Source: Halobellus captivus
GTDB taxonomy: Archaea; Halobacteriota; Halobacteria; Halobacteriales; Haloferacaceae
Length of the DNA: 39,387 nucleotides
Assembly: GCF_007655485.1 (NCBI RefSeq)
Contig: NZ_VJXQ01000003.1
Coordinates: 1 to 39,387 of the forward strand
Direction: 5' to 3'
Of the stretch, positions 2,799 to 20,703 are shown piece by piece (the first letter of the stretch is position 1; each line of letters starts with the position of its first letter). The notes under the pieces were generated by a model. It made no database searches. It worked only from the letters and a program-made list of their open reading frames with translations, and had not been told where the DNA came from. The position numbers and the translations under genes were made by a program.

Positions 2799-5441
2799 TC
2801 AGTCGGCGCGGTGGACGATCACGATCGCGTCGCCCGCTTCGAGCATCTCGCCCTCGCCGACGTACCGCCGCTCCTCTTCGATCTCGAACATCTCCGCCGC
2901 CAATTCGACGCCCGCGACGCGGAGTTTCCCATCCACCGTCTCGTACTCGCCCTCCGCGAGCGCGGCTTCGATCTCGGAGACCTGACTCCCGAACTCGGGG
3001 CCGACGAGCGAGTAATCGAGATCGACGCCGGTGACGACAGATTCGATCGCCGGGCGCTCATCGAGCGTGTCCAGCTCCCCGACGTGCATCACGCTCGAGA
3101 TGTCCGCCTCGAACCCGGAGACGTCGCCCCAGATCTCGACGCGATCTATCTCGGCGTTCATCGGAAGTTGCTCGTCGCTCTTGTACTTCCGGAGCGCGCC
3201 GACCACCGCCATCGCCGTTTCGCCCGCTTCGACGTCGGCGTCGACGCCGAGCGGTTCGGGCCACCCGCTGCGGTGGATGCTCTCGGTCGCGTCGTGCATA
3301 TCGTACCACAGCTCCTCCGTCGCGTGCGCGAGAATCGGCGAGAAGAGCTTCAGGAACCGCCGGTGCGCGACGTCGAGCGTGTACGCCGCGGAGGCGTCGC
3401 CGTCGTTGTCGCGGACGCGCTGCTTCGCGATTTCGAGGTAGTCGTCACAGAACGTGTGCCAGAAGAAGCCCCGGAGGCCGTCGCGGGCCTTCGAGAACTC
3501 GCGGCTCTCGAACAGGTCGGTGACGCGCTCGATCTCTCGGTCCAGTTCCGCGAGGAGCCAGCGGTCGAGTTGGGCGAGGTCCTCGTGCTCGAACGCCCCG
3601 GGCGCGTCCTCTGTCAGACTCTCGACGAGTTTCGAGGCGTTCCAGAGCTTTCGCAGGAGCTTCTCGCCAGCGCGGAGCCCCTTCTCCGAGTAGGGGAGGT
3701 CGTCGCCGACGGCCGACCCCGCCGCCCAGTAGCGCGCGGCGTCGACGGGGAACTTCGAGACGACCTCGTCGGGCGAGACGACGTTCCCCTTCGACTTCGA
3801 CATCTTCTCTCGGTTCTCGTCGAGCACCATCCCGTTGATCATCACGCTGTCGAACGGCACCTCGCCGGTGTGTTCGTAGCACTTCACGACCGTGTGGAAC
3901 AGCCAAAACGAGATGATGTCGTGGCCCTGCGGCCGGAGATCGAACTGGTAGAGTTCGGGGTTCTCGAACGAGAATCCGTCTTCCTCGTCCCAGTCCCAGC
4001 CCGCGTTGATCAGCGGCGTGAGAGAGGAGGTCGCCCACGTGTCGAAGACGTCGTCCTCGGGCTCGAACTCGTCGTGGCCGCACTCGGGACAGGCGTCGAC
4101 CGGGGGCTCGTCGCTCAGCGGATCGACCGGGAGGTCCGCTTTCTCCGCGAGCACGACGTGCTCGCAGTCGGCGCAGTACCACACCGGGAACGGGATCCCC
4201 GAGGATCGCTGCCGGGAGATCGCCCAGTCCCACTGGAGCCCCTCGATCCAGTTCTTGTATCGCGTGAACATCTTCTCGGGGAACCAGTCCATCTCGCGAC
4301 CGGCCTGCAGGTACTCCTCGCGCTTGTCGAGCAGTTCGATGTACCACTGGTCCTTCACGAGGAACTCGACGCTCGTCCCGCAGCGCTCGTGGACGTTCAC
4401 GGTGTGCGTGATCGAGCGGCGGTCGAGGAGCGCCCCCGCGTCGTCGAGGTCGTCGACGATTCGCTCTCTGGCCTCCTCCGAGGAGAGCCCCTCGTACCCG
4501 CCCGCGACGTCGGTCAGCGTGCCCGATTCGTCGATGGCGATTCGGAGGTCCAGATCGTGCGCCTGGTACCACTCGATGTCGGTCTGGTCGCCGAACGTAC
4601 AGCACATCACGATACCGGAGCCGGTCTCCATATCGACCCGCTCGTCGGCGATGATCGGTACCTCGTGATCGAACAGCGGGATCCGCGCCTCCTCGCCGAC
4701 GAGGTACTGGTTCTCGTCGTCGTCGGGGTGGACAAACACCGCGACGCAGGCGGGCAAGAGTTCCGGGCGGGTCGTCGAGATGGTGAACGTCTCCAATTCT
4801 CCCTCCCCGGCGTCGGCATCCGCCCCGCCAACGACCTCGAAGGCGATGTCGTGGAAGTGACTCGGCTGTTCGTCGTCCTCCGTTTCCACCTGCGAAATCG
4901 CCGTCTCGCACTCGGGACACCAGATCGCAGGCGCGCGCTGGCGGTACTCTCTACCACGGTCGTGGAGGTCGATGAAGGAGAGCTGTGAAATGCGACGAAC
5001 CTCGGGCGAGATCGTCTGATACGTCTGGTTCCAGTCGATCGAGATGCCGAGGCTCTGCATCTTCTCGGTGAACTCCGCCTCGTACTCCGCACAGACCTCC
5101 TGAGTCATCCGCTGGAACTCCCGGCGCTCGTAGTCCTGGTGGCGGACGTCGAGTTCGTCTTCGGCCAAACGCTCGGAGGCGATACCGTTGTCGTCGTAGC
5201 CGAACGGGAAGTAGACGTCCTTGCCGCGCATCCGGTTGAACCGAGCGACGAAGTCCTGCAGCGTGAAGCCGTAGACGTGGCCCCAGTGCAGGCTCCCGGA
5301 TACCGTCGGCGGCGGCGAGTCGATCGAGAAGGCGGTGTCGGGGTCCTCCGCACTCCCCTCGTACGCGTAGGTCTCGTCGTCGACCCACCGGTCTTGCCAC
5401 TTCCGTTCGACGGTTTCGGGGTCGTATTCTCCGCTCGGCAT
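2799..5441 (-). CDS. valS: Valyl-tRNA synthetase
   Basis: Class I synthetase that charges tRNA-Val and edits misactivated Thr. The 880-residue protein has the ATP-binding HIGH variant HWGH at 52-55 and the KMSKS loop at 546-550 (followed by KGNVV). Between them is the CP1 editing region (TISTTRPELLPACVAVFVHP). There are Cys pairs of zinc-ribbon type (CPEC at the start of the editing region; CADC and CPEC before the second half of the Rossmann fold). The C-terminal half contains the helical anticodon-binding domain. The ATG at 5441 follows a TTAAC promoter-like element ~33 nt upstream. The gene is convergent with pyrD (63 bp apart) and begins a run of four synthetase genes on the minus strand. 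Confidence 0.97.
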   Translation of the reverse strand: MPSGEYDPETVERKWQDRWVDDETYAYEGSAEDPDTAFSIDSPPPTVSGSLHWGHVYGFTLQDFVARFNRMRGKDVYFPFGYDDNGIASERLAEDELDVRHQDYERREFQRMTQEVCAEYEAEFTEKMQSLGISIDWNQTYQTISPEVRRISQLSFIDLHDRGREYRQRAPAIWCPECETAISQVETEDDEQPSHFHDIAFEVVGGADADAGEGELETFTISTTRPELLPACVAVFVHPDDDENQYLVGEEARIPLFDHEVPIIADERVDMETGSGIVMCCTFGDQTDIEWYQAHDLDLRIAIDESGTLTDVAGGYEGLSSEEARERIVDDLDDAGALLDRRSITHTVNVHERCGTSVEFLVKDQWYIELLDKREEYLQAGREMDWFPEKMFTRYKNWIEGLQWDWAISRQRSSGIPFPVWYCADCEHVVLAEKADLPVDPLSDEPPVDACPECGHDEFEPEDDVFDTWATSSLTPLINAGWDWDEEDGFSFENPELYQFDLRPQGHDIISFWLFHTVVKCYEHTGEVPFDSVMINGMVLDENREKMSKSKGNVVSPDEVVSKFPVDAARYWAAGSAVGDDLPYSEKGLRAGEKLLRKLWNASKLVESLTEDAPGAFEHEDLAQLDRWLLAELDREIERVTDLFESREFSKARDGLRGFFWHTFCDDYLEIAKQRVRDNDGDASAAYTLDVAHRRFLKLFSPILAHATEELWYDMHDATESIHRSGWPEPLGVDADVEAGETAMAVVGALRKYKSDEQLPMNAEIDRVEIWGDVSGFEADISSVMHVGELDTLDERPAIESVVTGVDLDYSLVGPEFGSQVSEIEAALAEGEYETVDGKLRVAGVELAAEMFEIEEERRYVGEGEMLEAGDAIVIVHRAD

Positions 5442-5586
5442 TCTCGGGAGAAAATACCGGCGGGCGGCGTGTTAAGTCACTCGATTACCGGCTTCAGGGG
5501 CGAAGACGGGACGGGTGATTGTGAGGAGGACGAAGGCGGAGAGAGCGAAGTCAGAGCGGAACAGATCGCGAAGAGAGTGAAATCAG

Positions 5587-5658
5587 ATCCAGTCGTTGCC
5601 AAACGCCTCAAACCACTCGTCGTCGAATACCCCGAACTACTCGTCGCCGAGCGCTTCG
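5587..5658. repeat. 24-bp tandem repeat across the pheT stop codon
   Basis: Three degenerate copies (5635-5658, 5611-5634, 5587-5610; read on the minus strand) share a core like TTCGRCGACGAGTRGTT. The first contains the last codons of pheT and its TAG stop; the other two are non-coding copies downstream. Confidence 0.55.
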
Positions 5659-7382
5659 AGATCGAACTCGAAGGCCGCGACCGGCAGTTCGAGGTCGTGC
5701 TCGACCAGGATCTCCGGATGGAGTTCGCCGACGACGCCGACGGGCTCGCCGTCGATCACGACCGACGCGACGCGACCGTCGATGAACGAGGGGTGCTCCG
5801 TCGGCGGCGTTTCGAGATCGACGTCGAAGTCCCGACAGATCGTCTGCAGGCGCGCCTTCGCGTCCTCGTAGGTGGCGTCGTGGCGAGCCAGCACGCCCGC
5901 GACGTGTCGGCGCTCGCGAACCCGGGTGTTGACGTCGTCGTCGCGTTCGGCCACGAGGCCGACCTCCGCGAGATCCTGCGGGTACGCGCGGTGCGTGTTG
6001 TTCTCCAAGACCATCGCGAGCGACGGCAGCGCCCACGGGCGGAGGATCTCGTAGTCCTCGCTGTAGGGTTCGGTGATCCGAACCGGGTCGCCGCCGCCGA
6101 GGATGTCGCTCCCGACCTCGACGTTCATCCGCTCGTAGACCTCCGTCTCGCTCGTCATATGGAAGTTCAGGAGGTCCTCGAAGCCGAGACCGGTCAGGAC
6201 GTTTCGGGTCGCCGCTTCGAGCCGGGATCGCTCGTGGCGGCCGCCGACCGTGCCGACGTCGGGGTACCGCGGTTCGAGCTCGTCGAAGCCGTACGCGCGA
6301 CCGACGTCGTCGACGAGGTCGAGCGGGTGAAGCACGTCGACGCGGTACGGCGGGATCGACACCTCGTAGGACGTGGTCTCGGGATCTTCGGAATCCACCA
6401 CGACCGCGCCGAGCCCGGAGCGCTCGAAGAGGTCGACGACCTCCTCGCTCGCGAACTCGACGCCGAGCATCCTCTCGATGCGGTCGTGGGAGACGGACTT
6501 CGTCTCGACCTCGAAGTCGGGGCGGACGAGCGTCCGTTCGCCCTCCGGCGACGACTCGCCGTAGACGATCTCGACGTCCTCGATCGTCGCGCCGCGCGCC
6601 GAGAGCGCGTAGCAGATGATGTTGCACATCCGGTCGATCGTCCACTGATCAGTGCCAGTAAGTTCGACCAGCAGATCCCGCGAGTCCGTCGACACCTCGG
6701 TCCGGCGACCGTTGATGACCGGCGGGAACGAGAACAGCCCGAGTTCGTCGTAGATCGCCGGGTAGCGGTCGTATTCGCGGACGATATCCGCGTACTTCTC
6801 GCCGGTCGGGTGCTCCTCCAGCACCGCGGCGGGCGTCATCTCTCGATCGCTGTCGAGCGGGACGAACGTGTCGCCCTCGGGGTCGATACCGGTGTAGGTG
6901 ATCGAATTGCCGTCACCCTCCTCGGAGAGCACGTCACCCTTGATCGCCACCAGGTCGTGAATCCCGATCGCGCCCTTCGCGCGCTTGCGACCCATCGTCG
7001 CGTGGAGTTTCTCCTGGAGCTGGATCAACGAGTCCAGCGCCGCCTCGTCGAGGGTGACGCCGCGGACGATCGCACCCGTCACGTACGGCCGCTCGTCGGG
7101 GACGTTGGCGTCGACGACGTACGTGAAGTCAGGATCGTTGGTGTCGGGGACGGCCACGCCGCGCGCGTCGCCGTAGTGATAGCGGAGCGAGCGCGCGACG
7201 CCCTCGACGGAGAGCCGATCGAGGCGGTCGGGACCGAACTCAAACTGCAGCAGGCCCTCCTCGGTCTCGCCCTCGTACTCCAGGCCGAGGCCGAACAGGT
7301 CGGATTTCAGTTCCTCGTCGCCCTTCTCCTCGTGACCGGTCAGCTCCCGAAGCTCGTCGGGATCGATGTCGACGACAGGCAT
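5637..7382 (-). CDS. pheT: Phenylalanyl-tRNA synthetase beta subunit
   Basis: Beta chain of the alpha2-beta2 PheRS; it holds the editing site and supports tRNA-Phe binding while the alpha chain does catalysis. At 581 residues it has the short archaeal/eukaryal form without the bacterial N-terminal tRNA-binding domain. The B3/B4 editing domain (KRAKGAIGIHDL region, ~130-300) is followed by a B5 domain (~300-380, SIPPYRVDVLHPLDLVDDV) and a catalytic-like C-terminal part. The start codon at 7382 shares its base with the end of pheS, so the two are translationally coupled. There is no gap for a promoter between them. The 3' end is duplicated downstream. Confidence 0.96.
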   Translation of the reverse strand: MPVVDIDPDELRELTGHEEKGDEELKSDLFGLGLEYEGETEEGLLQFEFGPDRLDRLSVEGVARSLRYHYGDARGVAVPDTNDPDFTYVVDANVPDERPYVTGAIVRGVTLDEAALDSLIQLQEKLHATMGRKRAKGAIGIHDLVAIKGDVLSEEGDGNSITYTGIDPEGDTFVPLDSDREMTPAAVLEEHPTGEKYADIVREYDRYPAIYDELGLFSFPPVINGRRTEVSTDSRDLLVELTGTDQWTIDRMCNIICYALSARGATIEDVEIVYGESSPEGERTLVRPDFEVETKSVSHDRIERMLGVEFASEEVVDLFERSGLGAVVVDSEDPETTSYEVSIPPYRVDVLHPLDLVDDVGRAYGFDELEPRYPDVGTVGGRHERSRLEAATRNVLTGLGFEDLLNFHMTSETEVYERMNVEVGSDILGGGDPVRITEPYSEDYEILRPWALPSLAMVLENNTHRAYPQDLAEVGLVAERDDDVNTRVRERRHVAGVLARHDATYEDAKARLQTICRDFDVDLETPPTEHPSFIDGRVASVVIDGEPVGVVGELHPEILVEHDLELPVAAFEFDLEALGDE

Positions 7383-8923
7383 CAGTAGGTCACCTCCGCG
7401 CCGCGGAGGAAATCAAGGTCCGCGAGCGTCCCGTGCAGGTCGCGGATGTCCTCCGCGCCCGTGGTGAGCATCGCGAGTCGCTCCAGAGCGAGCCCCCACG
7501 CCATCACGTCGTGCTCGACGCCGAGCGGTTCGAGCACCTCGTCGCGGAACATCCCCGAATTTCCGATCTCGATCAGTTCGCCCGTCGTGGGATGGCGGCC
7601 GAACAGCTCGAAGGACGGCTCCGTATAGGGGTTGTAGTGCGGTTTGAACTGGACGTCGGTAATGCCGAACTGCTCGTAGAACTCGACGAACGTGCCCATC
7701 AGGTCCCGTACTGAGAGGTCCTCGGCCATCACCCAGCCCTCGATCTGGAAGAACTCCAGTAAGTGGGTCGCGTCCAGCGTGTCGTTGCGGTACACCTTCT
7801 CGACGGAGAAGTACCGCTGCGGCGGTTCGAGGTCGCCGATCTGCGTGCCGGAAAGGTAGCGCATCGACAGCGACGTGGTGTGTCCGCGGAGCGCGATCGC
7901 TCGCGCGAAGTCCTCGGACCACGGCGAGTGGTAGCCGTCGCCGTCCTCGTCGACGCCCTCGCGATGGGTGCGCTCGACGCGGTCGACGAGGTCTTCGGGC
8001 AGGTCCTCGATCGGCGGCACGTCGAGCGCGAAGCGGTCCCAGTGAGTCCGCGCCGGGTGGTCCTGCGGCATAAACAGGCAGTCGTTGATCCAGAAATCCG
8101 CGTCGGCGTGGGGGCCGTCCATCTCCTGGAAGCCCATCCCGACGAGGACGTCCTTCACGCGCTCTGCTGTCTGGCGGAGCACGTGGGTCTTGCCGCCGCG
8201 GACCTCGGGTGCGTCGGCCTCGACGTTGTACTCGGTGAACTCGACGTCTGCCCACTCGCCGGAGGTGAGCATCTCGGGAGTCAGTCGGTCGACCGTCTCG
8301 GCGGCCTCGACGCCCTCCATCAGCGCCGTGACGCCCGCGTCGGTGAGCGTGACCGTGCGGACAGTGCGCTCGTGACGCTCGATGAGGTTCCGCGACACGA
8401 GTTGGTCGAGGACGTCGCCGTCGACGTCGGCGAGTGTGTCTGCTTCAGCGCGGGTCTCACCGTCACCCTCGGCGTTCGCGAGAGCGACGAGCGCGACTGC
8501 CTCGGGATCGGATTCGGTGTCCGCGTCGCCGTCGGCCGACAGTTCGCCGCTGTCGATGTTGCCGTACCCCTTCCGTCCGAAGTTCGCCAGCGCGATGTCG
8601 ACCTCCGGGCCGTCGAGGTCGGCCGCGCCGATGACGCGGCCCATCTGCACCGGACCGTCGGCCGCGCCAGCCTCGACCGCGGCGCGGTACAGTCGCACCT
8701 CGGGGAGCCCTGCGTCGACGTACGCCCGGCCCTCGTCAGTCAGTTCGTACGCCACCGACTCCGCTTCCGCGACGCCGAGGAAACCGCCGTCGCGAAGCTC
8801 GAAAACGGCCTGCGTCGCCGTCTCCGGCTTCAGGCCCGTCTCTTCTGCAAGGTGGTCGATCGACAGTTCGTCCGTCGCGCTCGCGGCGTTCAACACCGCG
8901 ACCTGTGGTTCGGGTAATTTCAT
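7382..8923 (-). CDS. pheS: Phenylalanyl-tRNA synthetase alpha subunit
   Basis: Catalytic chain of PheRS, a class II synthetase joining Phe to the 2'-OH of tRNA-Phe. In this 513-residue protein, the first ~220 residues are the winged-helix/DNA-binding-like repeats seen in archaeal and eukaryal PheS. The class II core follows: DHPARTHWDRF, RGHTTSLSMRYL, motif 2 around 368-385 (YFSVEKVYRND with LLEFFQIEGWV), and motif 3 near 470-490 (VMAWGLALERLAML). It is the first gene of a pheS-pheT operon. The 411-bp upstream spacer separates it from a divergent amphi-Trp gene. Confidence 0.97.
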   Translation of the reverse strand: MKLPEPQVAVLNAASATDELSIDHLAEETGLKPETATQAVFELRDGGFLGVAEAESVAYELTDEGRAYVDAGLPEVRLYRAAVEAGAADGPVQMGRVIGAADLDGPEVDIALANFGRKGYGNIDSGELSADGDADTESDPEAVALVALANAEGDGETRAEADTLADVDGDVLDQLVSRNLIERHERTVRTVTLTDAGVTALMEGVEAAETVDRLTPEMLTSGEWADVEFTEYNVEADAPEVRGGKTHVLRQTAERVKDVLVGMGFQEMDGPHADADFWINDCLFMPQDHPARTHWDRFALDVPPIEDLPEDLVDRVERTHREGVDEDGDGYHSPWSEDFARAIALRGHTTSLSMRYLSGTQIGDLEPPQRYFSVEKVYRNDTLDATHLLEFFQIEGWVMAEDLSVRDLMGTFVEFYEQFGITDVQFKPHYNPYTEPSFELFGRHPTTGELIEIGNSGMFRDEVLEPLGVEHDVMAWGLALERLAMLTTGAEDIRDLHGTLADLDFLRGAEVTY

Positions 8924-9334
8924 TTCTTTCGTGAGTCTCGCCGCAGCGTCGGTCGTTGTCGCGTCTACCGACCGGCCGCCAGTTAGCAGTTCCGAAGACC
9001 GCGGATCGTTCCCGCTTCCGTCGAGGTGTCTGGGGTCGGGGTGCAGTCCGTGCGCCGGGTCGGGCGGTTTCGCCGCCGATCACGACGCACCGTCAAAACG
9101 ACGACACGCCGCGCTCGGGAGATTCACCGCCCTCACTCGATTCTAAAAAGAAGCCGGACCCACCGCTGTCTGTCGGTTGCATGTCGACGCCGCGCGCTGA
9201 GGAATCGGGTCCGGAGCGCATACGTGATCGCCTCCCGCTCCCAAAAGAAAACGATTGCGAAAGTATGAGAGGAAATAGCACGAAAATGGCTGTCAGGGGG
9301 CGCGTTTATCAATCGAAAGGGCGTACTGACACCA
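8924..9334. other. Divergent spacer between pheS and the amphi-Trp gene
   Basis: I see no gene in this 411-bp spacer. It presumably carries the pheS promoter at its left end, although I could not pick a clear TATA box. At its right end it carries the promoter of the next gene (GTTTATC near 9304-9310, ~28 nt before the ATG). A/T-rich patches near 9144-9156 and 9241-9290 could be transcript ends or regulatory sites, but no inverted repeat stands out. Confidence 0.4.
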
Positions 9335-9622
9335 ATGCCCGAAGAAGTCCTGTTTAAATCCGAGAGTCGTCAGAGCCGAGAATCGATCGCGACGTACCTG
9401 CGCGCTGTCGCGGATAAGCTTGAAGGGAGCGAGCCCGTCACGCTCAGCGCTGGCGGGGAGTCGGTGACCCTGGAACCGCCCGCACAGCCGACGTTCGAGG
9501 TGAAAGCCGAACGGGAGGGGCCAGCGGACGGCCCCGGCGAACTGAGCATCGAACTGGAAATCGAGTGGGACGAAGGCAGCGACGACGGCGCTGACGGCGA
9601 CGGCGAGTTGACGATCGAGTAG
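9335..9622 (+). CDS. Amphi-Trp domain-containing protein
   Basis: This 95-residue acidic protein is of the amphi-Trp type, a small family common in haloarchaea whose function is not established. The visible family features are the amphipathic start (EEVLFKSESRQSRESIATYLRAVADKLEG), the short beta strands VTLSAGGESVTLEPP, and the C-terminal ELSIELEIEW containing the conserved Trp before a very acidic tail. The TATA-like GTTTATC ~28 nt upstream implies an almost leaderless mRNA. The gene is convergent with trpS (24 bp apart). Confidence 0.8.
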   Translation: MPEEVLFKSESRQSRESIATYLRAVADKLEGSEPVTLSAGGESVTLEPPAQPTFEVKAEREGPADGPGELSIELEIEWDEGSDDGADGDGELTIE

Positions 9623-9646
9623 CGTCGGGAGCCGGTAGCAGTCAGG

Positions 9647-11452
9647 TCAGTCGTCGCCGGGCGCGACGCCGCGGCGCGGCGATTCCAGCGAGATGTCCAG
9701 GTCTTCGAGGACCTCCTCGGCCTCCTCGCGCTTCTCCTGGTGATCTTCCAAGAACTCGCGCATCAGTTCCGCGGCCTGCTCCTTGCAGCCGCCGCAGAGG
9801 CGCTCGCCGCCGACGCACTCGTCGTAGACCTCCTTCGCGAACTCGTCGTCGTCGCCAGCGAGCAGGTAGGCGTACAGTTCGTAGACCGGACACTCGTCGG
9901 CTTTGCCGCCCAGCCGCCGCTGCTCTTCTGCGGTGTCGCGACCGCCGGTCGTCGCCGATTTCACTTTGTTATATCCATCCGCGGGGTCGTCGAGAAGCGA
10001 GATGTGCGACGCCGGGATCGACGACGACATCTTCCCGCCCGTGAGGCCGGTCATAAACCGATGGTAGATCGACGACGGCGGGACGAATCCGTAGCCGCCG
10101 TGGTCGAGTTCGATCTCTCGGGCCAGTTCCTCGGCCTCGGTCGCGTCGAGGTCGAACGCGTCGACGTGCTCGTCGTAGCGGCGCTTCTCGCCCTCGATCG
10201 CTTCCACGAGCGCCTCGAAGGCCGCGTCGGTCGCGTTACGGTCCAGGAAGCGAACGCGGGGGCGGAGCGGTTCCATCCCGCCGTTTTCGAGCTTCTCGAT
10301 CGCCGATTCGACGACGTCGTCGGCGACGACGACGCCCAGTTCGTCGAGAGCGTCGCCGAGGTCCCCGTCGGGGGCCCCGCCGTCGGTATCGGAGCCAGCG
10401 CGCTCGGCGAGCCACGCGCCCGCCTCCCCGCAGCGCGGGCGCTCGGGCGCTTCGGCGTACGCCTCTCTGGCCTCGTAGACCGCACCGACGAGCGCGCGCT
10501 CGGCGTCGTCGAGCTCGAAGCTCGCGTACGCCTCTGTCATCTTGAAGAAACGCATCCGGGCGGCGAGGTCGCGCGCGAAGCGGACGTGCGGGTCCTGATC
10601 GGGGCCCACGGGGATGACCGTCGGCTTGGGCGAGTCGAGTTGCGGGTAGAGGATGTCGGCCATCTGCGTGACGACCGACTGCATGTGTGAGACGTTGGTC
10701 TCGCCGTCGAAGCCGTAGATCCCCTGGAACTCCGAGAAGTTCGCCTTCGAGCCGAGTTCGAAGGCGAGGTCCTGCAGTACGCGGTTTTCGGACTGCCGGT
10801 ACAGTTCGCCCTCCTCGGGGTCGAAGCCGAGCGCGAGCAGGCTGAGGAGGTAATCGCGGGCGTGCTCGTCGATCTCCCCCCAGGTCATCCCGCGCGCGGA
10901 GTGCGCTTCGAGGTCGGCGATCAGCCCGTAGGCGTCCGCTCCCTGCTCTTGGTGCCAGATGATCTCGTCGAAGACGAGCTTGTGGCCGATGTGCGGGTCG
11001 CCGGTCGGCATAAATCCGGACAGGACCGCCGCGTCCTCGCCCTCCCGAAGCGCTTCGGCGACGGGGTCGTAGTCGCGGTGCCCGAAGATGACGCCGCGGC
11101 GCATCAGATAGTGCGGGTTCGGAACGTCGGGGAGGACGTCGTCGAACTCCTCGATGCCGAACTCCTCGAAGAGCTTTCGGTAGTCCGAGACCGTCGAGGA
11201 ACCCCACGGGTCGAGCGCGACGTCGTCAGCGCCCGCGGCGGAGTCGTCGCCGGTGCCGCCGTCCGTCCGCAGTCGGACGGATTCGGGCGCTGCTGTTGCG
11301 TCCGTCGCATCCGGCGCATCCGCTACGTCCGTTGTATCCGCTACATCCGTTGTATCCGCTACGTCTGTCGCATCCGGTGCATCTGCTCCGTCCGGCCGCA
11401 CTGTCTCGGTGACGTCGCCGTCGTCGGAGTCGCGAGCGTGGTCTCGTGTCAT
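9647..11452 (-). CDS. trpS: Tryptophanyl-tRNA synthetase with repeat-rich N-terminus and Cys4 motif
   Basis: Class I synthetase charging tRNA-Trp. The HIGH site is at 154-157 (GDPHIGHK) and the KMSKS variant GGKMSSS is near 470. The first ~75 residues are a low-complexity acidic extension built from [V/T/A][A/T/P]D triplets, encoded by 9/18-bp tandem repeats, so the 601-residue length is above normal and the core starts near residue 78. Near the C-terminus Cys521, Cys546, Cys553 and Cys556 have the spacing C-x24-C-x6-C-x2-C, close to the [4Fe-4S] motif known in Thermotoga TrpRS (C-x22-C-x6-C-x2-C). The start ATG overlaps the endA stop by 4 bp, so the two are one operon. Confidence 0.95.
   Translation of the reverse strand: MTRDHARDSDDGDVTETVRPDGADAPDATDVADTTDVADTTDVADAPDATDATAAPESVRLRTDGGTGDDSAAGADDVALDPWGSSTVSDYRKLFEEFGIEEFDDVLPDVPNPHYLMRRGVIFGHRDYDPVAEALREGEDAAVLSGFMPTGDPHIGHKLVFDEIIWHQEQGADAYGLIADLEAHSARGMTWGEIDEHARDYLLSLLALGFDPEEGELYRQSENRVLQDLAFELGSKANFSEFQGIYGFDGETNVSHMQSVVTQMADILYPQLDSPKPTVIPVGPDQDPHVRFARDLAARMRFFKMTEAYASFELDDAERALVGAVYEAREAYAEAPERPRCGEAGAWLAERAGSDTDGGAPDGDLGDALDELGVVVADDVVESAIEKLENGGMEPLRPRVRFLDRNATDAAFEALVEAIEGEKRRYDEHVDAFDLDATEAEELAREIELDHGGYGFVPPSSIYHRFMTGLTGGKMSSSIPASHISLLDDPADGYNKVKSATTGGRDTAEEQRRLGGKADECPVYELYAYLLAGDDDEFAKEVYDECVGGERLCGGCKEQAAELMREFLEDHQEKREEAEEVLEDLDISLESPRRGVAPGDD
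11292..11393. repeat. 9/18-bp tandem repeat encoding the TrpRS N-terminal triplets
   Basis: Near-identical 18-bp units lie at 11322-11339 (GCTACGTCCGTTGTATCC), 11340-11357 and 11358-11375. More diverged 9-bp half-units run from ~11292 to 11393. On the minus strand they encode runs of Val-Ala-Asp and Thr-Thr-Asp. Confidence 0.8.
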
Positions 11453-12630
11453 GGGGTCAGTCGGGCTACCGAGAGCCAGTCTATCTGGCCGTTCGCCGCG
11501 GTGAGCGCAAAAACCATTCGCTTCCGGACCCCTCCGGCGAGCCGGACGTCCAGCGAGAGGTCGCGTGGATAGAACGCGTGCTCGGGCGCGAGCACGCGCA
11601 CGAGGTCCGTCGAGTGGCTCAGCGAGTCGACGTCGGTGAATGCCTCGTAGACGCGGAAGTCCGCGCCGAACTTGAATCCGCTCTTGGGGACGACGCCGCG
11701 GTCCCGGAGCGCGGCGTAGGTTCGGAGCCGTCGATCGAACCGCTCGCCCTCGACGTCGCGGCCGATCGCGACGACGTTCTCGGCGTCGACGTCGACGACG
11801 CCCCGCTCGGCGAGGTACGCTCCCTCGACGAGCGAGAGCTGCAGCGGCCCGCTGTCGGCGTTGCGGCCGAAGAGCCGCTGGCCGTAGAAGTGGTCCTCGT
11901 AGAGGTCGTCGGCGTCGTAGCAGACCACGCGGTCGTCGAACAGATCGGCGTCGACGGCGTCACCTCGATCGGCGTCGACGACGCTCTCGCGCGCGCCGGA
12001 CTGCGAATCGTGTTCGTCGTCGGCCGTCGCACCGACCGCCGGATCGTCGTCCGTGTCGAAGTACGTCAACTCACCGTCCTCGTCGACGACCGCGAGGACG
12101 ACGCCGCCCAGCGACGCCGCGGGGACGGCCTCACGCTCGCCCGCGACGCGGATTCGGTAGGCGACCTCGTCGTCCCACGGGCCCTTGCCGCGGGGGTAGA
12201 CGACGAAGTCGGTGGCGGCGGCCCCCGTTTCAGTGCCGGTATCGCTCGCGACGGCGTCGTCGACGCCGGGCCAGCCCTCCCGCGCGGGCGAGAGGTAGAA
12301 CCCGCGGTCGCGGAGGTCCTTGTAGACCGCGAAGCGAAGCGCCGCGCCCGTTCGAACGAGGAACGTCCGGAAATCCAGGCGCGAGGCGTCGACGTCGGAC
12401 GCCATCCGAGACGCGTCAGTCGGATCGTCTTCGGATTCGTCGGTGGAACCGTCTTCGGATTCGTCGACGACGGCGTCTAAGTCCCCGCGCGAGAGGAGGT
12501 GCGCCGCCTCGACGGGTGCCAGTTCGATGCGGTTGCGATCGAGCGGGCGACCGTACCCGCGGGCGTCGTAGAACCGCTGTCTGGCGTTGCCGCCGACGCG
12601 GACCACGCCGTCGGCCAGTGTCCCGTCCAT
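11449..12630 (-). CDS. endA: tRNA-splicing endonuclease EndA
   Basis: Cuts introns from precursor tRNAs at bulge-helix-bulge sites; in haloarchaea the best-known substrate is tRNA-Trp. The 393-residue protein has the duplicated arrangement of haloarchaeal EndA: two N/C-domain pairs, the first degenerate (near 100-190) and the second active. The second contains KSGFKFGADFRVYEAF, SLSHSTDLVRVL and LAGGVRKRMVFAL, supplying the Tyr, His and Lys of the catalytic triad. A long acidic linker separates the halves. I chose the ATG at 12630 because a TATA-like GGATAATC (12667-12674, minus strand) predicts a transcript start ~13 nt before it; the open frame runs further upstream, and an ATG at 12657 is too close to that box. 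It is cotranscribed with trpS. Confidence 0.9.
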   Translation of the reverse strand: MDGTLADGVVRVGGNARQRFYDARGYGRPLDRNRIELAPVEAAHLLSRGDLDAVVDESEDGSTDESEDDPTDASRMASDVDASRLDFRTFLVRTGAALRFAVYKDLRDRGFYLSPAREGWPGVDDAVASDTGTETGAAATDFVVYPRGKGPWDDEVAYRIRVAGEREAVPAASLGGVVLAVVDEDGELTYFDTDDDPAVGATADDEHDSQSGARESVVDADRGDAVDADLFDDRVVCYDADDLYEDHFYGQRLFGRNADSGPLQLSLVEGAYLAERGVVDVDAENVVAIGRDVEGERFDRRLRTYAALRDRGVVPKSGFKFGADFRVYEAFTDVDSLSHSTDLVRVLAPEHAFYPRDLSLDVRLAGGVRKRMVFALTAANGQIDWLSVARLTP

Positions 12631-12916
12631 ACTGGTTGTGGGTGTCGGCGGCGACATAGGGGCTGCGATTATCCGGGCAATATCGAGGAAGTGGTGCGGT
12701 AAACGCCGGAGCGAAAGAGCCAGTGATACCGCTGTGAGCCCCCGCGTGGTCGATTCGGAGCCCCTGCGAGCCCACCCGACGGCATCGCACCTCACCCTCC
12801 CCGGACGACTCCTCTCACGCGGCGTTCGCTCGTCGCCGCTCGCACGACTCGGCCGCGGGACGGGGCGCGCGGCAGCACGCGCACGAGGTCGATGAGCTGT
12901 CGCGAACCGGAAGCAC
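12631..12916. other. Spacer with endA promoter
   Basis: Beyond the TATA-like element for endA (GGATAATC, minus strand, 12667-12674), this is a GC-rich stretch in which I find no gene. It contains short direct and inverted GC-rich words but no clear tRNA or hairpin terminator. Confidence 0.35.
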
Positions 12917-13657
12917 TCACGTCTCGAATCGGTCGCACGTCGCGTCGAGACACCGTCGCCCGCGTGCGGTCTCGAAGAGTGGGAGCCCGCAGTCGCAGTC
13001 GTCGACGACGACGCCCGCCGGGATCGCAAAGGCGGTGTCGCAGTCGGGGTAGGCGTCACACCCCGCGAGCAGACGACCGCCGCGGCGGATGATTCGCAGA
13101 TTGGACCCGCAGTCGGGGCAGGTCCACTGGCCGTCGAAGCGCTCGCGGACGGCGTCGTCGAGGGACTCACACGAGCGGTCGAGACAGAGTTCGAAGGCGT
13201 CGCCCGCCTCCGCGCGGATCTTCGGCAGACCGCACGAGTCGCACGTCTCGTCGAGGACGGTCGCGCCCGCGGGCAGCGGATACCTGACGTCGGTGTCGAG
13301 TCCGCAGACGTCGCCGCTCGCGCGCACCAGCGGTTCTCCCGTCCCAGGATGAGAGCCGACGGGAACGCCCGCCTCGGTCACCGGGTACTCGGCCCACCCG
13401 GCGGTCTCGTGGGAGACGACCCGGAGGGTCTGCCCTCCAGCGCGGGCGACGAGGCCGAACCCACCGTCGGCGGTCTCGACGGTCAGCGAGTCGGGGCGGG
13501 TGAGCCACGCGACGGGCTGATAGCCGTCGGCGTCGTGGACGAGTACCGTTCGGTCGGGTTTGACCACGATCGCGACGCGGCCGCGCTGCGTACGGGCGCG
13601 GGTGCCCTCGAACGTCGTCGTACAGTCTCCGGCGAAGACCCGAATCGTCTCGGACAT
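12917..13657 (-). CDS. NucS-like N-terminal domain fused to C4 zinc fingers
   Basis: Two parts are visible in 246 residues. Residues ~5-85 (VFAGDCTTTFEGTRART, then VVKPDRTVLVHDADGYQPVA and WLTRPDSLTV) resemble the N-terminal DNA-binding domain of the NucS/EndoMS mismatch endonuclease. The rest carries three Cys4 clusters of the topoisomerase I C4 type: C139/C142/C158/C163, C180/C183/C200/C206 and C221/C223/C236/C241. The nuclease domain of NucS is absent, so this is probably a DNA-binding protein without catalysis. I chose the ATG at 13657 because upstream in-frame sequence has no family resemblance and would run into the divergent HAD gene. The function is unknown; a role in DNA repair or topology is inference. 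Confidence 0.75.
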   Translation of the reverse strand: MSETIRVFAGDCTTTFEGTRARTQRGRVAIVVKPDRTVLVHDADGYQPVAWLTRPDSLTVETADGGFGLVARAGGQTLRVVSHETAGWAEYPVTEAGVPVGSHPGTGEPLVRASGDVCGLDTDVRYPLPAGATVLDETCDSCGLPKIRAEAGDAFELCLDRSCESLDDAVRERFDGQWTCPDCGSNLRIIRRGGRLLAGCDAYPDCDTAFAIPAGVVVDDCDCGLPLFETARGRRCLDATCDRFET

Positions 13658-17579: not shown

Positions 17580-19253
17580 TCAGTCGTCGGCGGGTGTCGG
17601 CGACGAACCGCCGAAGCGGGCCTCGGGGACGGTTCCGTCGGCGTTCCAGTTTCGGGCCGTGTAGTACGCTTCGATCGCGGCGTCGACGTCGGGAATCTCG
17701 TAGGGGAGTTCGTCGTCAGCGCGGTCGAATCCGCGTCGGTTGTTGAAGTGCCGCTCGCGTTCGACGACGCCAGCGCCCACGTCGAGGAGTTCCTCGTAAT
17801 CCGCGTCGAACAGCACCTCGAAGGCGTCCTCGTCGATATACTGCCCCGAGAACGCGCACACGACGCCCGAGTCCCGGAACGCACAGAAGTCCTCCTGTTC
17901 GACGAGCGTCTCGACTTTGTCCGTGGTGCCCTCGGCCTCGATGACGCCGCCGTACGTGAGCCCCATCATCTCGGCGTACAGGTGGTCGCCGCCGCGGTTG
18001 GAAACGGCGTACTGGAGGCCCAGTCCGTGCAGGACGCGTCCGTCGTGGGCGGCGAACTCCATCCCCTTCATCGTCATATCCTCGACGCCCAGTTCGTCGT
18101 GAGCGCGGTGGACGCCCTCGGCGAGCAGGTCGCCGACGCCCTCGCGAGTCGCGATCCGCTCGGTCACGTCCCGAGCGAGGGCGGCGTTTCCGAACTCGCC
18201 CTCGCTGGCGAGGTAGGCGGCGACGGTGACTCCCGCCGAGATCGTGTCCATCCCGTACTCGTCGCAGAGCTCGTTCGCCGCCATCACGTCGACGATATCG
18301 CCGACGCCCTGGCTCGAACCGAACGAGTAGACCGTCTCGAACTCCGGGCCCTCGGTCTCGATGCCGCGCTCCTCGTCGCGGGTCGGAAGCTTGCAGGCGA
18401 AGGCGCACTGCGAGCACGCGCCCTTTTTGTACTTTTTCTCTTCGACGGCCGCGCCGCCGATGTCGGCGGCGTGCTCGAACTCGTACTCGGAGAAGTACCG
18501 CGTCGGCAGCGAGAAGTTGTCGTTGATGAACTCCGTACCGCCGGTCGTGCCCTGTCGCTTCATCGAATCGTCGGCCGTGGCCGCCGCGCGGTGGATCTCC
18601 CCGGCGACGTCGGCGGGCACCTCAACGGGCGGTCGAGAGTCGCCGTCGAACGTCACTAGCTTGACGTTCTTCGAGCCGAGCACCGCGCCGAAGCCGCCGC
18701 GGCCGAACGCCCGCGTGTCGAACGTCATCGCGCTGGCGAACCGGACGCGGTTCTCTCCCGCGGGGCCGATCGCGACGCAGTTGTCCGGACCGAGTTCGTA
18801 GTGTTCCTCGGCGTAGTCGCTCACCTCGCTGATGAGCGCGCCCTCCAGTTCCGGTACCGCCTCGAAGGAGACGCCGTCGTCGCGGACGTGAACGGCGAGC
18901 AGTTCGTCGCTCGCGCCGACGAGTTCGACGACGCTGTTGCCCGTTCCGGTGAAATTTCGCGAAAGGTAGCCACCGGCGTTGCTCGAACAGAGCCCGTCGG
19001 TCAGCGGCGACACCGCCGTCATATTCATCCGGCCGGTGAAGCTCATCTGCGAGTGCTGAAGCGGTCCCGTCGAGAGGTACACGCGGTTCTCCGGCCCGAA
19101 CGGGTCGGCGTCGAACGGGATCCGATCGTGCGCGAGGCGCGTCGCCGTCGCGCGGCCGCCGATCGTCTCGGCGAGGAGGTCGTCGATGTCGGTTCGCGTC
19201 GCGGTTCGCTCGGAGAGGTCGACCCTGAGAAGCGGACCCTTCGCGTGGAGCAT
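17580..19253 (-). CDS. Aldehyde ferredoxin oxidoreductase family protein (tungsten)
   Basis: Oxidises aldehydes to carboxylic acids with a tungsto-bispterin and a [4Fe-4S] cluster, passing electrons to ferredoxin. The 557-residue protein begins like the family (GPLLRVDLSERTATR, then a GG near residue 30). It carries SFTGRMNMTAVSPLTDG, a region resembling the pterin-binding FGRGGFGAVLGSKNVKL, and the cluster ligands CSQCAFAC (CxxCxxxC) with a fourth Cys in SGVVCAFSG. I chose the ATG at 19253; the open frame continues upstream, but that part is repeat-derived and not family-like. A TATA-like box at 19375-19382 (minus strand) would give a ~95-nt leader. The MoaD-like gene at 17225 is its convergent neighbour. 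Confidence 0.9.
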   Translation of the reverse strand: MLHAKGPLLRVDLSERTATRTDIDDLLAETIGGRATATRLAHDRIPFDADPFGPENRVYLSTGPLQHSQMSFTGRMNMTAVSPLTDGLCSSNAGGYLSRNFTGTGNSVVELVGASDELLAVHVRDDGVSFEAVPELEGALISEVSDYAEEHYELGPDNCVAIGPAGENRVRFASAMTFDTRAFGRGGFGAVLGSKNVKLVTFDGDSRPPVEVPADVAGEIHRAAATADDSMKRQGTTGGTEFINDNFSLPTRYFSEYEFEHAADIGGAAVEEKKYKKGACSQCAFACKLPTRDEERGIETEGPEFETVYSFGSSQGVGDIVDVMAANELCDEYGMDTISAGVTVAAYLASEGEFGNAALARDVTERIATREGVGDLLAEGVHRAHDELGVEDMTMKGMEFAAHDGRVLHGLGLQYAVSNRGGDHLYAEMMGLTYGGVIEAEGTTDKVETLVEQEDFCAFRDSGVVCAFSGQYIDEDAFEVLFDADYEELLDVGAGVVERERHFNNRRGFDRADDELPYEIPDVDAAIEAYYTARNWNADGTVPEARFGGSSPTPADD

Positions 19254-19773
19254 TTCCGGAAAGTACGGGAGCCAGCAGGTAGTTTTTTCGCCAGGAGCGA
19301 GAACCCAGACCCGACTGGGAGCGCCTCGTCGACAGCTTCGAAGCCTCGCTGTTCTCGGCGGTTTCAGCCGATCGTTTATATCCGAAGGCGAGGCCAGCGT
19401 CCCTGTGACGTGAAAGCCATCCCGCGTCGTGCAGCAGTTGCTCGGCACGGCGGCGCGGGCACGCGGGTGACGGCGTTGGCGGGGCCGCCGTCGCGCGTCG
19501 CGAGCGGGTGCCGACTGTTTGCCCAGACTGCGAGCCGTGGCTATGGTTGCGTTTGAAGCTGACTTGCTCGACCGACCGCAGGACGAGACGCAGCCAGAGT
19601 ACACGACAGACGCACCGGAGTGCACAACAGACGCTCGGGAGTGTACGAAAGGCGCATCAGAGTGTACGAAAGGCGCATCAGGACGCACGCCGTCGTGCGA
19701 TCGGGTGAACGAGGAGTTGCGAACGTTACCGTCTAACCCGCAGGCTTTTGCTCGGGCGCTCGAACAACGGGGT
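19254..19773. other. Divergent AOR-lipA spacer with inverted and tandem repeats
   Basis: This 520-bp stretch has no convincing gene. A 7-bp inverted repeat GCCTCGC (19343-19349)/GCGAGGC (19388-19394) brackets a smaller TCGGC/GCCGA hairpin and a TATA-like GTTTATATCC that could serve either strand. Further right is a 21-bp tandem repeat (19595-19678). A GGCTTTTGC element near 19742-19750 is the likely lipA promoter. Confidence 0.5.
19595..19678. repeat. 21-bp tandem repeat, four copies, upstream of lipA
   Basis: Units lie at 19595-19615, 19616-19636, 19637-19657 and 19658-19678. The last two are nearly identical (core GAGTGTACGAAAGGCGCAT) and the first two are diverged (GAGTRCACRACAGACGC). Read in frame they would add seven-residue peptides to the LipA N-terminus, but the unit is more likely non-coding because the LipA family start lies at 19774. 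Confidence 0.8.
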
Positions 19774-20703
19774 ATGAGCGGTAGGCGGAAGCCGGACTGG
19801 CTGAAGATGCGCCCGCCGTCGGGGCGGCGGTTCACCGACATCAAGCAGACGCTCCGAGATCGCGACCTCCACACCGTGTGTGAGGAGGCGAACTGCCCGA
19901 ATATGGGCGAGTGCTGGAGCGGCCGCAACGGCCCGGGAACGGCGACGTTTATGCTGATGGGCGATCGCTGCTCGCGCGGCTGTAACTTCTGCGACGTCGA
20001 GACCGGCGGGATGGAGGCACTCGATCCCGACGAACCGGCGAACGTCGCGGACGCCGTCGCGGAGATCGGACTGGACTACGTCGTGCTCACGTCGGTCGAT
20101 CGCGACGACCTGCCGGACCAGGGCGCGGGCCACTTCGCGCGGACGATCCGCGAGATCAAAGAGCGCGATCCGGGGATCTTAGTGGAAGTGCTCATTCCCG
20201 ACTTCCAAGGCGATCCCGGGCTGGTTCGAAAGATCATCGACGCCGGACCCGACGTGATCGCGCACAACATCGAGACGGTCGAACGCCTCCAGTGGCCGGT
20301 GCGGGATCGTCGCGCCGACTACGAGCAGTCGCTGTCGGTGCTCGAACAGGTGTCCGAGGAGTCCGATGTCTACACGAAGACCTCGATAATGCTCGGTCTC
20401 GGCGAGTACGATCACGAGATCTACCAGACGCTGTCGGACCTGCGCGAGGCCGATGTCGACGTCGTCACGCTGGGGCAGTATCTCCAGCCCTCGCGGACGC
20501 ACCTCGACGTCTTCGAGTACGTCCACCCCGACGCGTTCGAGACGTGGCGGCGGGTGGCCGAAGACGAACTGGACTTCCTCTACTGCGCGTCGGGGCCGAT
20601 GGTCCGGTCGTCGTACAAGGCCGGAGAGCTGTTCGTCGACGCCGTGCTGCGCGAGGGCAAGAGCGTCGAGGCCGCCCGACGGGAAGCCCGCGCGGCCGAC
20701 TGA
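19774..20703 (+). CDS. lipA: Lipoyl synthase (radical SAM)
   Basis: Inserts two sulfur atoms into the octanoyl group carried by lipoyl proteins such as glycine-cleavage H protein and oxoacid dehydrogenase E2. In this 309-residue protein the auxiliary cluster ligands are C36, C41 and C47 (CEEANCPNMGEC) and the radical SAM cluster is C66, C70, C73 (CSRGCNFC). The C-terminal RSSY motif (VRSSYKAGE), which supplies a cluster-ligand serine, is present. I chose the ATG at 19774 because it begins the conserved part and sits ~28 nt after a TATA-like GGCTTTTG; the open frame extends to 19519 through the 21-bp repeats. Confidence 0.95.
   Translation: MSGRRKPDWLKMRPPSGRRFTDIKQTLRDRDLHTVCEEANCPNMGECWSGRNGPGTATFMLMGDRCSRGCNFCDVETGGMEALDPDEPANVADAVAEIGLDYVVLTSVDRDDLPDQGAGHFARTIREIKERDPGILVEVLIPDFQGDPGLVRKIIDAGPDVIAHNIETVERLQWPVRDRRADYEQSLSVLEQVSEESDVYTKTSIMLGLGEYDHEIYQTLSDLREADVDVVTLGQYLQPSRTHLDVFEYVHPDAFETWRRVAEDELDFLYCASGPMVRSSYKAGELFVDAVLREGKSVEAARREARAAD

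Follow-up and report, generated by a model that had tools for sequence, protein, structure and literature searches.

The trpS1 Locus of Halobellus captivus

The window analyzed here, a stretch of 39,387 nucleotides from Halobellus captivus (assembly GCF_007655485.1, contig NZ_VJXQ01000003.1, positions 1 to 39,387), carries on its minus strand trpS1 (9647..11452), a gene for a tryptophanyl-tRNA synthetase (TrpRS) of 601 amino acids. The initial annotation had named this gene a TrpRS, and the profile searches bear this out: the TrpS1 protein reached 1023.5 bits against the NF008928 equivalog (cut-off 891; residues 48-595) and also matched PF00579. Between 9647 and 11452 the minus strand, which the initial annotation had left unspecified, is an open frame of 601 residues and the plus strand is interrupted by a stop; the frame begins with an ATG at 11452, and the true start possibly lies further downstream. 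Both class I signatures are present in TrpS1. The HIGH motif of the class I catalytic domain (H154-H157; 10982..10993, minus strand) contributes three invariant columns (H154, G156, and H157) to the alignment of relatives, and KMSSS (residues 474-478; 10019..10033, minus strand) is the counterpart of KMSKS. Residues 1-77 (11222..11452, minus strand) form an acidic, low-complexity N-terminal extension that is predicted to be disordered and that differs in length between the aligned relatives; residues 1-89 have a pLDDT below 50 in the structure model described below. An 18-base tandem repeat of 3.7 copies (11310-11376) lies inside this extension.

TrpS1 is the sole TrpRS that we detected in the H. 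captivus genome. A second match to TIGR00233 was rejected as a TrpRS, as it is a tyrosyl-tRNA synthetase (NF006330, 441.1 bits), and no gene resembling the haloarchaeal paralogue trpS2 (see below) was found in this genome at an E-value of 1e-60.

The trpS1 gene is part of a tRNA-related run on one strand (2799-13170, minus strand). Downstream of it follow the genes for PheRS alpha, PheRS beta, and a Leu-like class I synthetase (Ile/Leu/Met/Val type). Directly upstream lies endA (11449..13170, minus strand), encoding the tRNA-splicing endonuclease (NF006794, 509.2 bits, cut-off 383, residues 181-573), which overlaps trpS1 by the four bases ATGA; the NF006794 model does not extend to the first ~180 residues of the endA frame. 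A separate gene on the same strand (17580-19928) resembles those for aldehyde ferredoxin oxidoreductases (PF01314, PF02730), and its frame begins ~230 residues ahead of the domain. We found endA as the same-strand neighbour of trpS1 in 42 of 51 distinct haloarchaeal genomes (43/56 loci, some of which have short flanks); the linkage is common, not universal. By its description in the available text of PMC7714728, the endA-trpS1 operon of Haloferax volcanii (TrpS1, HVO_2951) has the same gene order and four-base overlap; that text differs from our reading of TrpS1 in making no mention of a cluster. The gene for tRNA-Trp(CCA) in H. captivus (G000 contig 1, 431702-431881) contains an intron of 106 bases, and its transcript therefore needs splicing. 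In Haloferax, the tRNA-Trp intron is described as guiding 2'-O-methylation of C34 and U39 (PMC7714728).

A Four-Cysteine Site in the Anticodon-Binding Part of TrpS1

TrpS1 possesses a four-cysteine site, C521-x24-C546-x6-C553-x2-C556 (9785..9892, minus strand), whose residues are the predicted ligands of a [4Fe-4S] cluster in the anticodon-binding part of the enzyme. Translation of 9785-9892 on the minus strand reads C-PVYELYAYLLAGDDDEFAKEVYDE-C-VGGERL-C-GG-C, with the codons of Cys521 at 9890-9892, Cys546 at 9815-9817, Cys553 at 9794-9796, and Cys556 at 9785-9787. It reproduces exactly the residues and spacings given in the initial annotation, which had also placed them near the anticodon-binding region; the four cysteines indeed lie between KMSSS and the C-terminus. 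The spacings x24, x6, and x2 fit the motif C-x(21-24)-C-x6-C-x2-C, which the accessible text of Han et al. (2010; PMC2954223) reports chiefly from thermophiles and other extremophiles, among them archaea, and from a single copy in genomes with several TrpRSs. The motif is also mentioned for some bacterial and archaeal TrpRSs in PMC5370408, as far as its available text goes. The [4Fe-4S] cluster on C-x22-C-x6-C-x2-C that the initial annotation gave for the Thermotoga enzyme agrees with the accessible part of PMC2954223, where the cluster is assigned to four cysteines of the anticodon domain from density, X-ray fluorescence, and mass spectrometry, and iron is confirmed. This Thermotoga maritima protein (TM0492; 2G36) shares the anticodon-domain motif with TrpS1. 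It differs from TrpS1 in the x22 spacing and is a far more remote relative, its phmmer match (52.2 bits) being confined to the catalytic part.

The closest known structure is that of the archaeal-type TrpRS from Aeropyrum pernix (3A04/3A05). In sequence, 3a04 was the best PDB match of TrpS1 (268.2 bits), and its four cysteines align one-to-one with those of TrpS1. An AlphaFold2 model of TrpS1 built from 36 sequences (mean pLDDT 82.5) gave 3a04 as the best match both in Foldseek (E-value 6.5e-27) and in VIA-align (Z 44.5, rmsd 2.1 over 357 residues, 43% identity). The A. pernix enzyme differs from TrpS1 in its first-pair spacing, which is x23 compared with x24, and has neither the N-terminal extension nor the insertion that separates the Rossmann domain from KMSSS. 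The model superposes on 3A04, and its residues 521-560 have pLDDT values of 86-93; we infer from the aligned positions that the four cysteines of TrpS1 would converge in space. An Fe-S TrpRS identity is well supported for TrpS1 by homology, namely by the cysteine alignment to 3A04 and the published archaeal motif, and TrpS1 very probably holds the [4Fe-4S] cluster that is already in print for the family. Genes of the SufB/SufD type, which serve cluster assembly, are present in the genome. As a kind, the Fe-S TrpRS is not new, and TrpS1 adds one member to it; our literature search, in the text that it reached, returned no biochemical test of an archaeal TrpRS cluster.

Conservation of the Four Cysteines among Archaea

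All four cysteines were present in 97 of 97 haloarchaeal TrpS1 proteins, in the alignment and in the profile read-out alike, and the motif is therefore not a chance arrangement. These 97 proteins come from 76 genomes of the class (the 30 with the highest scores and 46 drawn mostly from the bottom of the score range) and from 21 genomes of the relatives list; 8 of the latter 21 are also in the class list, which brings the class genomes in which TrpS1 was read to 84 of 145. In the same phylum outside the haloarchaea, where 74 of 124 genomes were read, the profile read-out gave C-C-C-C in 73 of 74 loci, the single other locus (L310) having a contig that ends after the first cysteine. The named archaeal loci add 78 of 80 with C-C-C-C, and they stem from Thermoproteota, Thermoplasmatota, methanogens, Archaeoglobi, Bathyarchaeota, a 'Thaumarchaeota', Woesearchaeota, DPANN, and Haloarchaea. 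Because they were selected from 349 relatives as the top 80 in similarity to a query that bears the cysteines, they give no frequency estimate, even though both search patterns were free of cysteine.

Two named loci depart from C-C-C-C: L217 is cut by a contig end, and the archaeal TrpRS of a Fervidicoccus MAG (L188) reads C-C-C-D at the cluster site. Aspartate serves as the fourth cluster ligand in some ferredoxins, and it could do so in L188. Between the first two cysteines the spacing is x24 in haloarchaea (with one x25) and mostly x23 elsewhere; two values of x27 are an artefact of an extra cysteine upstream that was caught by the search expression. One further TrpRS frame (L338, genome G260) contains a TAG within its matched stretch, perhaps a terminal stop or a read-through codon.

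An Insertion with a Fifth Cysteine

Alignments and the predicted fold place an insertion at about residues 309-455 (10088..10528, minus strand), between the Rossmann domain and KMSSS. It corresponds to a gap in the alignment with the A. pernix enzyme (3A04) and is shorter in methanogens. Folded alone, residues 298-462 reached a mean pLDDT of 90.2. No convincing relative of the insertion was found in the PDB (best Foldseek E-value 0.24, best VIA Z 5.1, profile search E-value 1.3), which is not evidence for a new fold.

The insertion harbours a fifth cysteine, Cys341 (10430..10432, minus strand), in an otherwise variable, haloarchaea-specific stretch. Together with Arg340 it forms a pair that is near-invariant in haloarchaea, with Cys in 96 of 97 proteins (the exception being L024) and Arg in 98%. 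Exactly five cysteines, the cluster four and Cys341, occur in 89 of 98 aligned rows, a count in which P0001 and the duplicate L004 stand as separate rows. In the predicted model Cys341 sits at the start of a helix, where its thiol could be structural or redox-active.

Cluster-Free TrpRSs in Haloarchaea

Besides TrpS1, 43 of 145 haloarchaeal genomes encode TrpS2, a cluster-free, eukaryote-like paralogue. Its best PDB match was the yeast TrpRS (267.3 bits), followed by those of P. horikoshii (261.7) and A. pernix (174.7). The cluster cysteines are absent from all 30 TrpS2 proteins read out of the 43 found; at the four positions we read D-Y-S-L in 25, D-Y-S-M in 4, and -YSI in 1. TrpS1 bore the motif in every haloarchaeal genome read and none of the 30 TrpS2 proteins did, in line with the single motif-bearing copy per genome reported by Han et al. 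(2010). TrpS2 and the eukaryotic cytoplasmic enzymes share enzyme family and fold with TrpS1, and differ from it in having D-Y-S/T-L/M in place of the cluster cysteines. In the human TrpRS these residues are D397-Y420-T427-L430, of which Tyr420 and Thr427 overlap the space of the cluster, according to the available text of PMC2954223. A literature search for a description of trpS2 in Halobacterium found no paper.

Across 8 genomic contexts of trpS2, the recurring neighbours, counted when common to at least 3 of the 8, encode a RIO kinase, a KH protein, a thermosome, and a DUF7351/HTH protein (10 proteins scanned). We had considered that trpS2 might lie in an operon for stress or iron and rejected this, as the neighbours proved to be ribosome-related instead.

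A further cluster-free TrpRS was present in 1 of the 145 genomes (L309/L351; G136 contig 6, 297305-298399). It is an additional enzyme of its host, is devoid of the insertion, and reads D-Y-S-L at the cluster positions. In the tree, L309 groups with the cluster-bearing TrpRSs on a long branch (1.15), and we are unsure of this placement; an AU test over 53 rows rejected a clade of L309 and TrpS2 (p-AU 9.8e-7). A chimeric origin of L309 was also considered; blastp matches along it were similarly strong to several TrpRS types. With two queries, no gene like trpS2 or L309 was found in 101 of the 145 genomes, that of H. captivus included. The D-Y-S-L filling is seen at least twice, in TrpS2 and in L309, which suggests that a packed core is able to stand in for the cluster. 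The cluster-free haloarchaeal TrpS2, the separate D-Y-S-L enzyme L309, and the near-invariant Cys341 are the new details of this study.

Function of the Predicted [4Fe-4S] Cluster

Taking these data together, we regard TrpS1, a haloarchaeal member of the archaeal-type class Ic TrpRSs, as quite likely to hold a structural [4Fe-4S] cluster in its anticodon domain on Cys521, Cys546, Cys553, and Cys556. The motif, its degree of conservation, the fold, and the match to an archaeal TrpRS listed with an Fe-S cluster are direct results; the identity, the occupancy, and the structural role of the cluster are what we infer for TrpS1. Haloarchaeal TrpS1 would have inherited the cluster from a four-cysteine TrpRS ancestor older than most of the sampled archaeal lineages. 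With all four irons ligated by cysteine, the cluster would serve as a structural staple, giving shape to the surface with which the enzyme reads the CCA anticodon of tRNA-Trp, and would be neither catalytic nor mainly a sensor. In the Thermotoga model, a contact between C34 and the cluster is possible via Cys266, as described in the accessible part of PMC2954223; by motif order, the counterpart of Cys266 in TrpS1 is Cys553. A structural role is suggested by the invariance of the site in TrpS1, beside which no other TrpRS was found in most of the haloarchaeal genomes searched, and by the cluster-free paralogues, which refill the four positions with one set of residues.

The initial annotation had further proposed that the cluster links tryptophan charging to the redox or iron state of the cell. 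Its first half, a Thermotoga-type [4Fe-4S] cluster, stands as far as homology can carry it; this second half gained no support. In its fuller form, the [4Fe-4S] cluster would double as a sensor of iron or oxygen, its loss would slow the charging of tRNA-Trp, and TrpS2 would serve as a backup in some species. The oxygen to which a cluster would be exposed in aerobic haloarchaea, the occurrence of TrpS2 in about three of ten genomes with every copy read free of the cysteines, and the extra conserved Cys341 within the insertion all speak for such a sensor. We nevertheless consider it unlikely, given that the four irons would all be ligated by cysteine, that the two queries detected no cluster-free TrpRS in 101 of the 145 haloarchaeal genomes, among them H. 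captivus itself, that the recurring trpS2 neighbours scanned are not stress genes, and that the cluster site is kept in methanogens, which are anaerobes, as well. A structural role on the anticodon side fits better than redox or iron sensing, also because the separate cluster-free enzyme L309 has D-Y-S-L too.

It is very unlikely that the four cysteines form a structural zinc site instead of an iron-sulfur site. Four cysteines with a CxxC pair would suit zinc as well, and Table 2 of PMC3680381, in its accessible text, provides some room for doubt: the Pyrococcus horikoshii TrpRS (3JXE), which has the same four cysteines by alignment and differs from TrpS1 in a GRGPSG-type signature as in the loci L094-L104, is listed with sulfate only; no cluster is given for 3A05; and the entry for 3A04 reads 'Fe-S cluster, Cadmium'. 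The cluster may thus be variable in its occupancy or may have been lost in handling. Against zinc stand its absence from the listing of all three archaeal entries, the Fe-S cluster given there for 3A04 (and for 2G36), the iron confirmed in the Thermotoga enzyme (PMC2954223), and the x6 and x2 spacings, which are identical to those of the Fe-S homologues. That the cysteines are a metal-free relic or pair as disulfides, as a cytoplasm exposed to oxygen might allow, is highly improbable in view of their invariance in the 97 haloarchaeal copies and in nearly all others read, and of their loss affecting all four together except in the one C-C-C-D protein.

Haloarchaea are mostly aerobes, and methanogens are anaerobes. 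C-C-C-C was found in all named loci from Halorubrum, Haloferax, Halorussus, Haloarchaeobius, Halonotius, and Halovivax, genera that we take to be aerobes. Because these genera keep the four cysteines, haloarchaea are an exception to the generalization, made in the accessible text of PMC5279795, that the TrpRS of aerobes retains the domain without the cluster pattern. In aerobically grown H. volcanii, trpS1 is reported to be transcribed (PMC7714728).

Any functional link of the cluster to the methylated C34 is conjecture on our part. A bolder scenario, which we put forward as a long shot, is that the charging of tRNA-Trp in haloarchaea constitutes an iron and oxygen checkpoint in which the sole TrpRS of most species would depend on the cluster, in which Cys341 could detect oxidation or pass it on, and which ~30% of the species would bypass via TrpS2, and that the cluster is tuned to the 2'-O-methylated C34. 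If true, this tuning of the cluster surface to C34 methylation would give a reason for the shared endA-trpS1 operon. The four-cysteine site itself is ordinary for archaea, and its persistence in the oxygen-breathing haloarchaea is mildly surprising. The presence of a cluster-bearing and a cluster-free TrpRS in one cell makes the purpose of the cluster directly testable.
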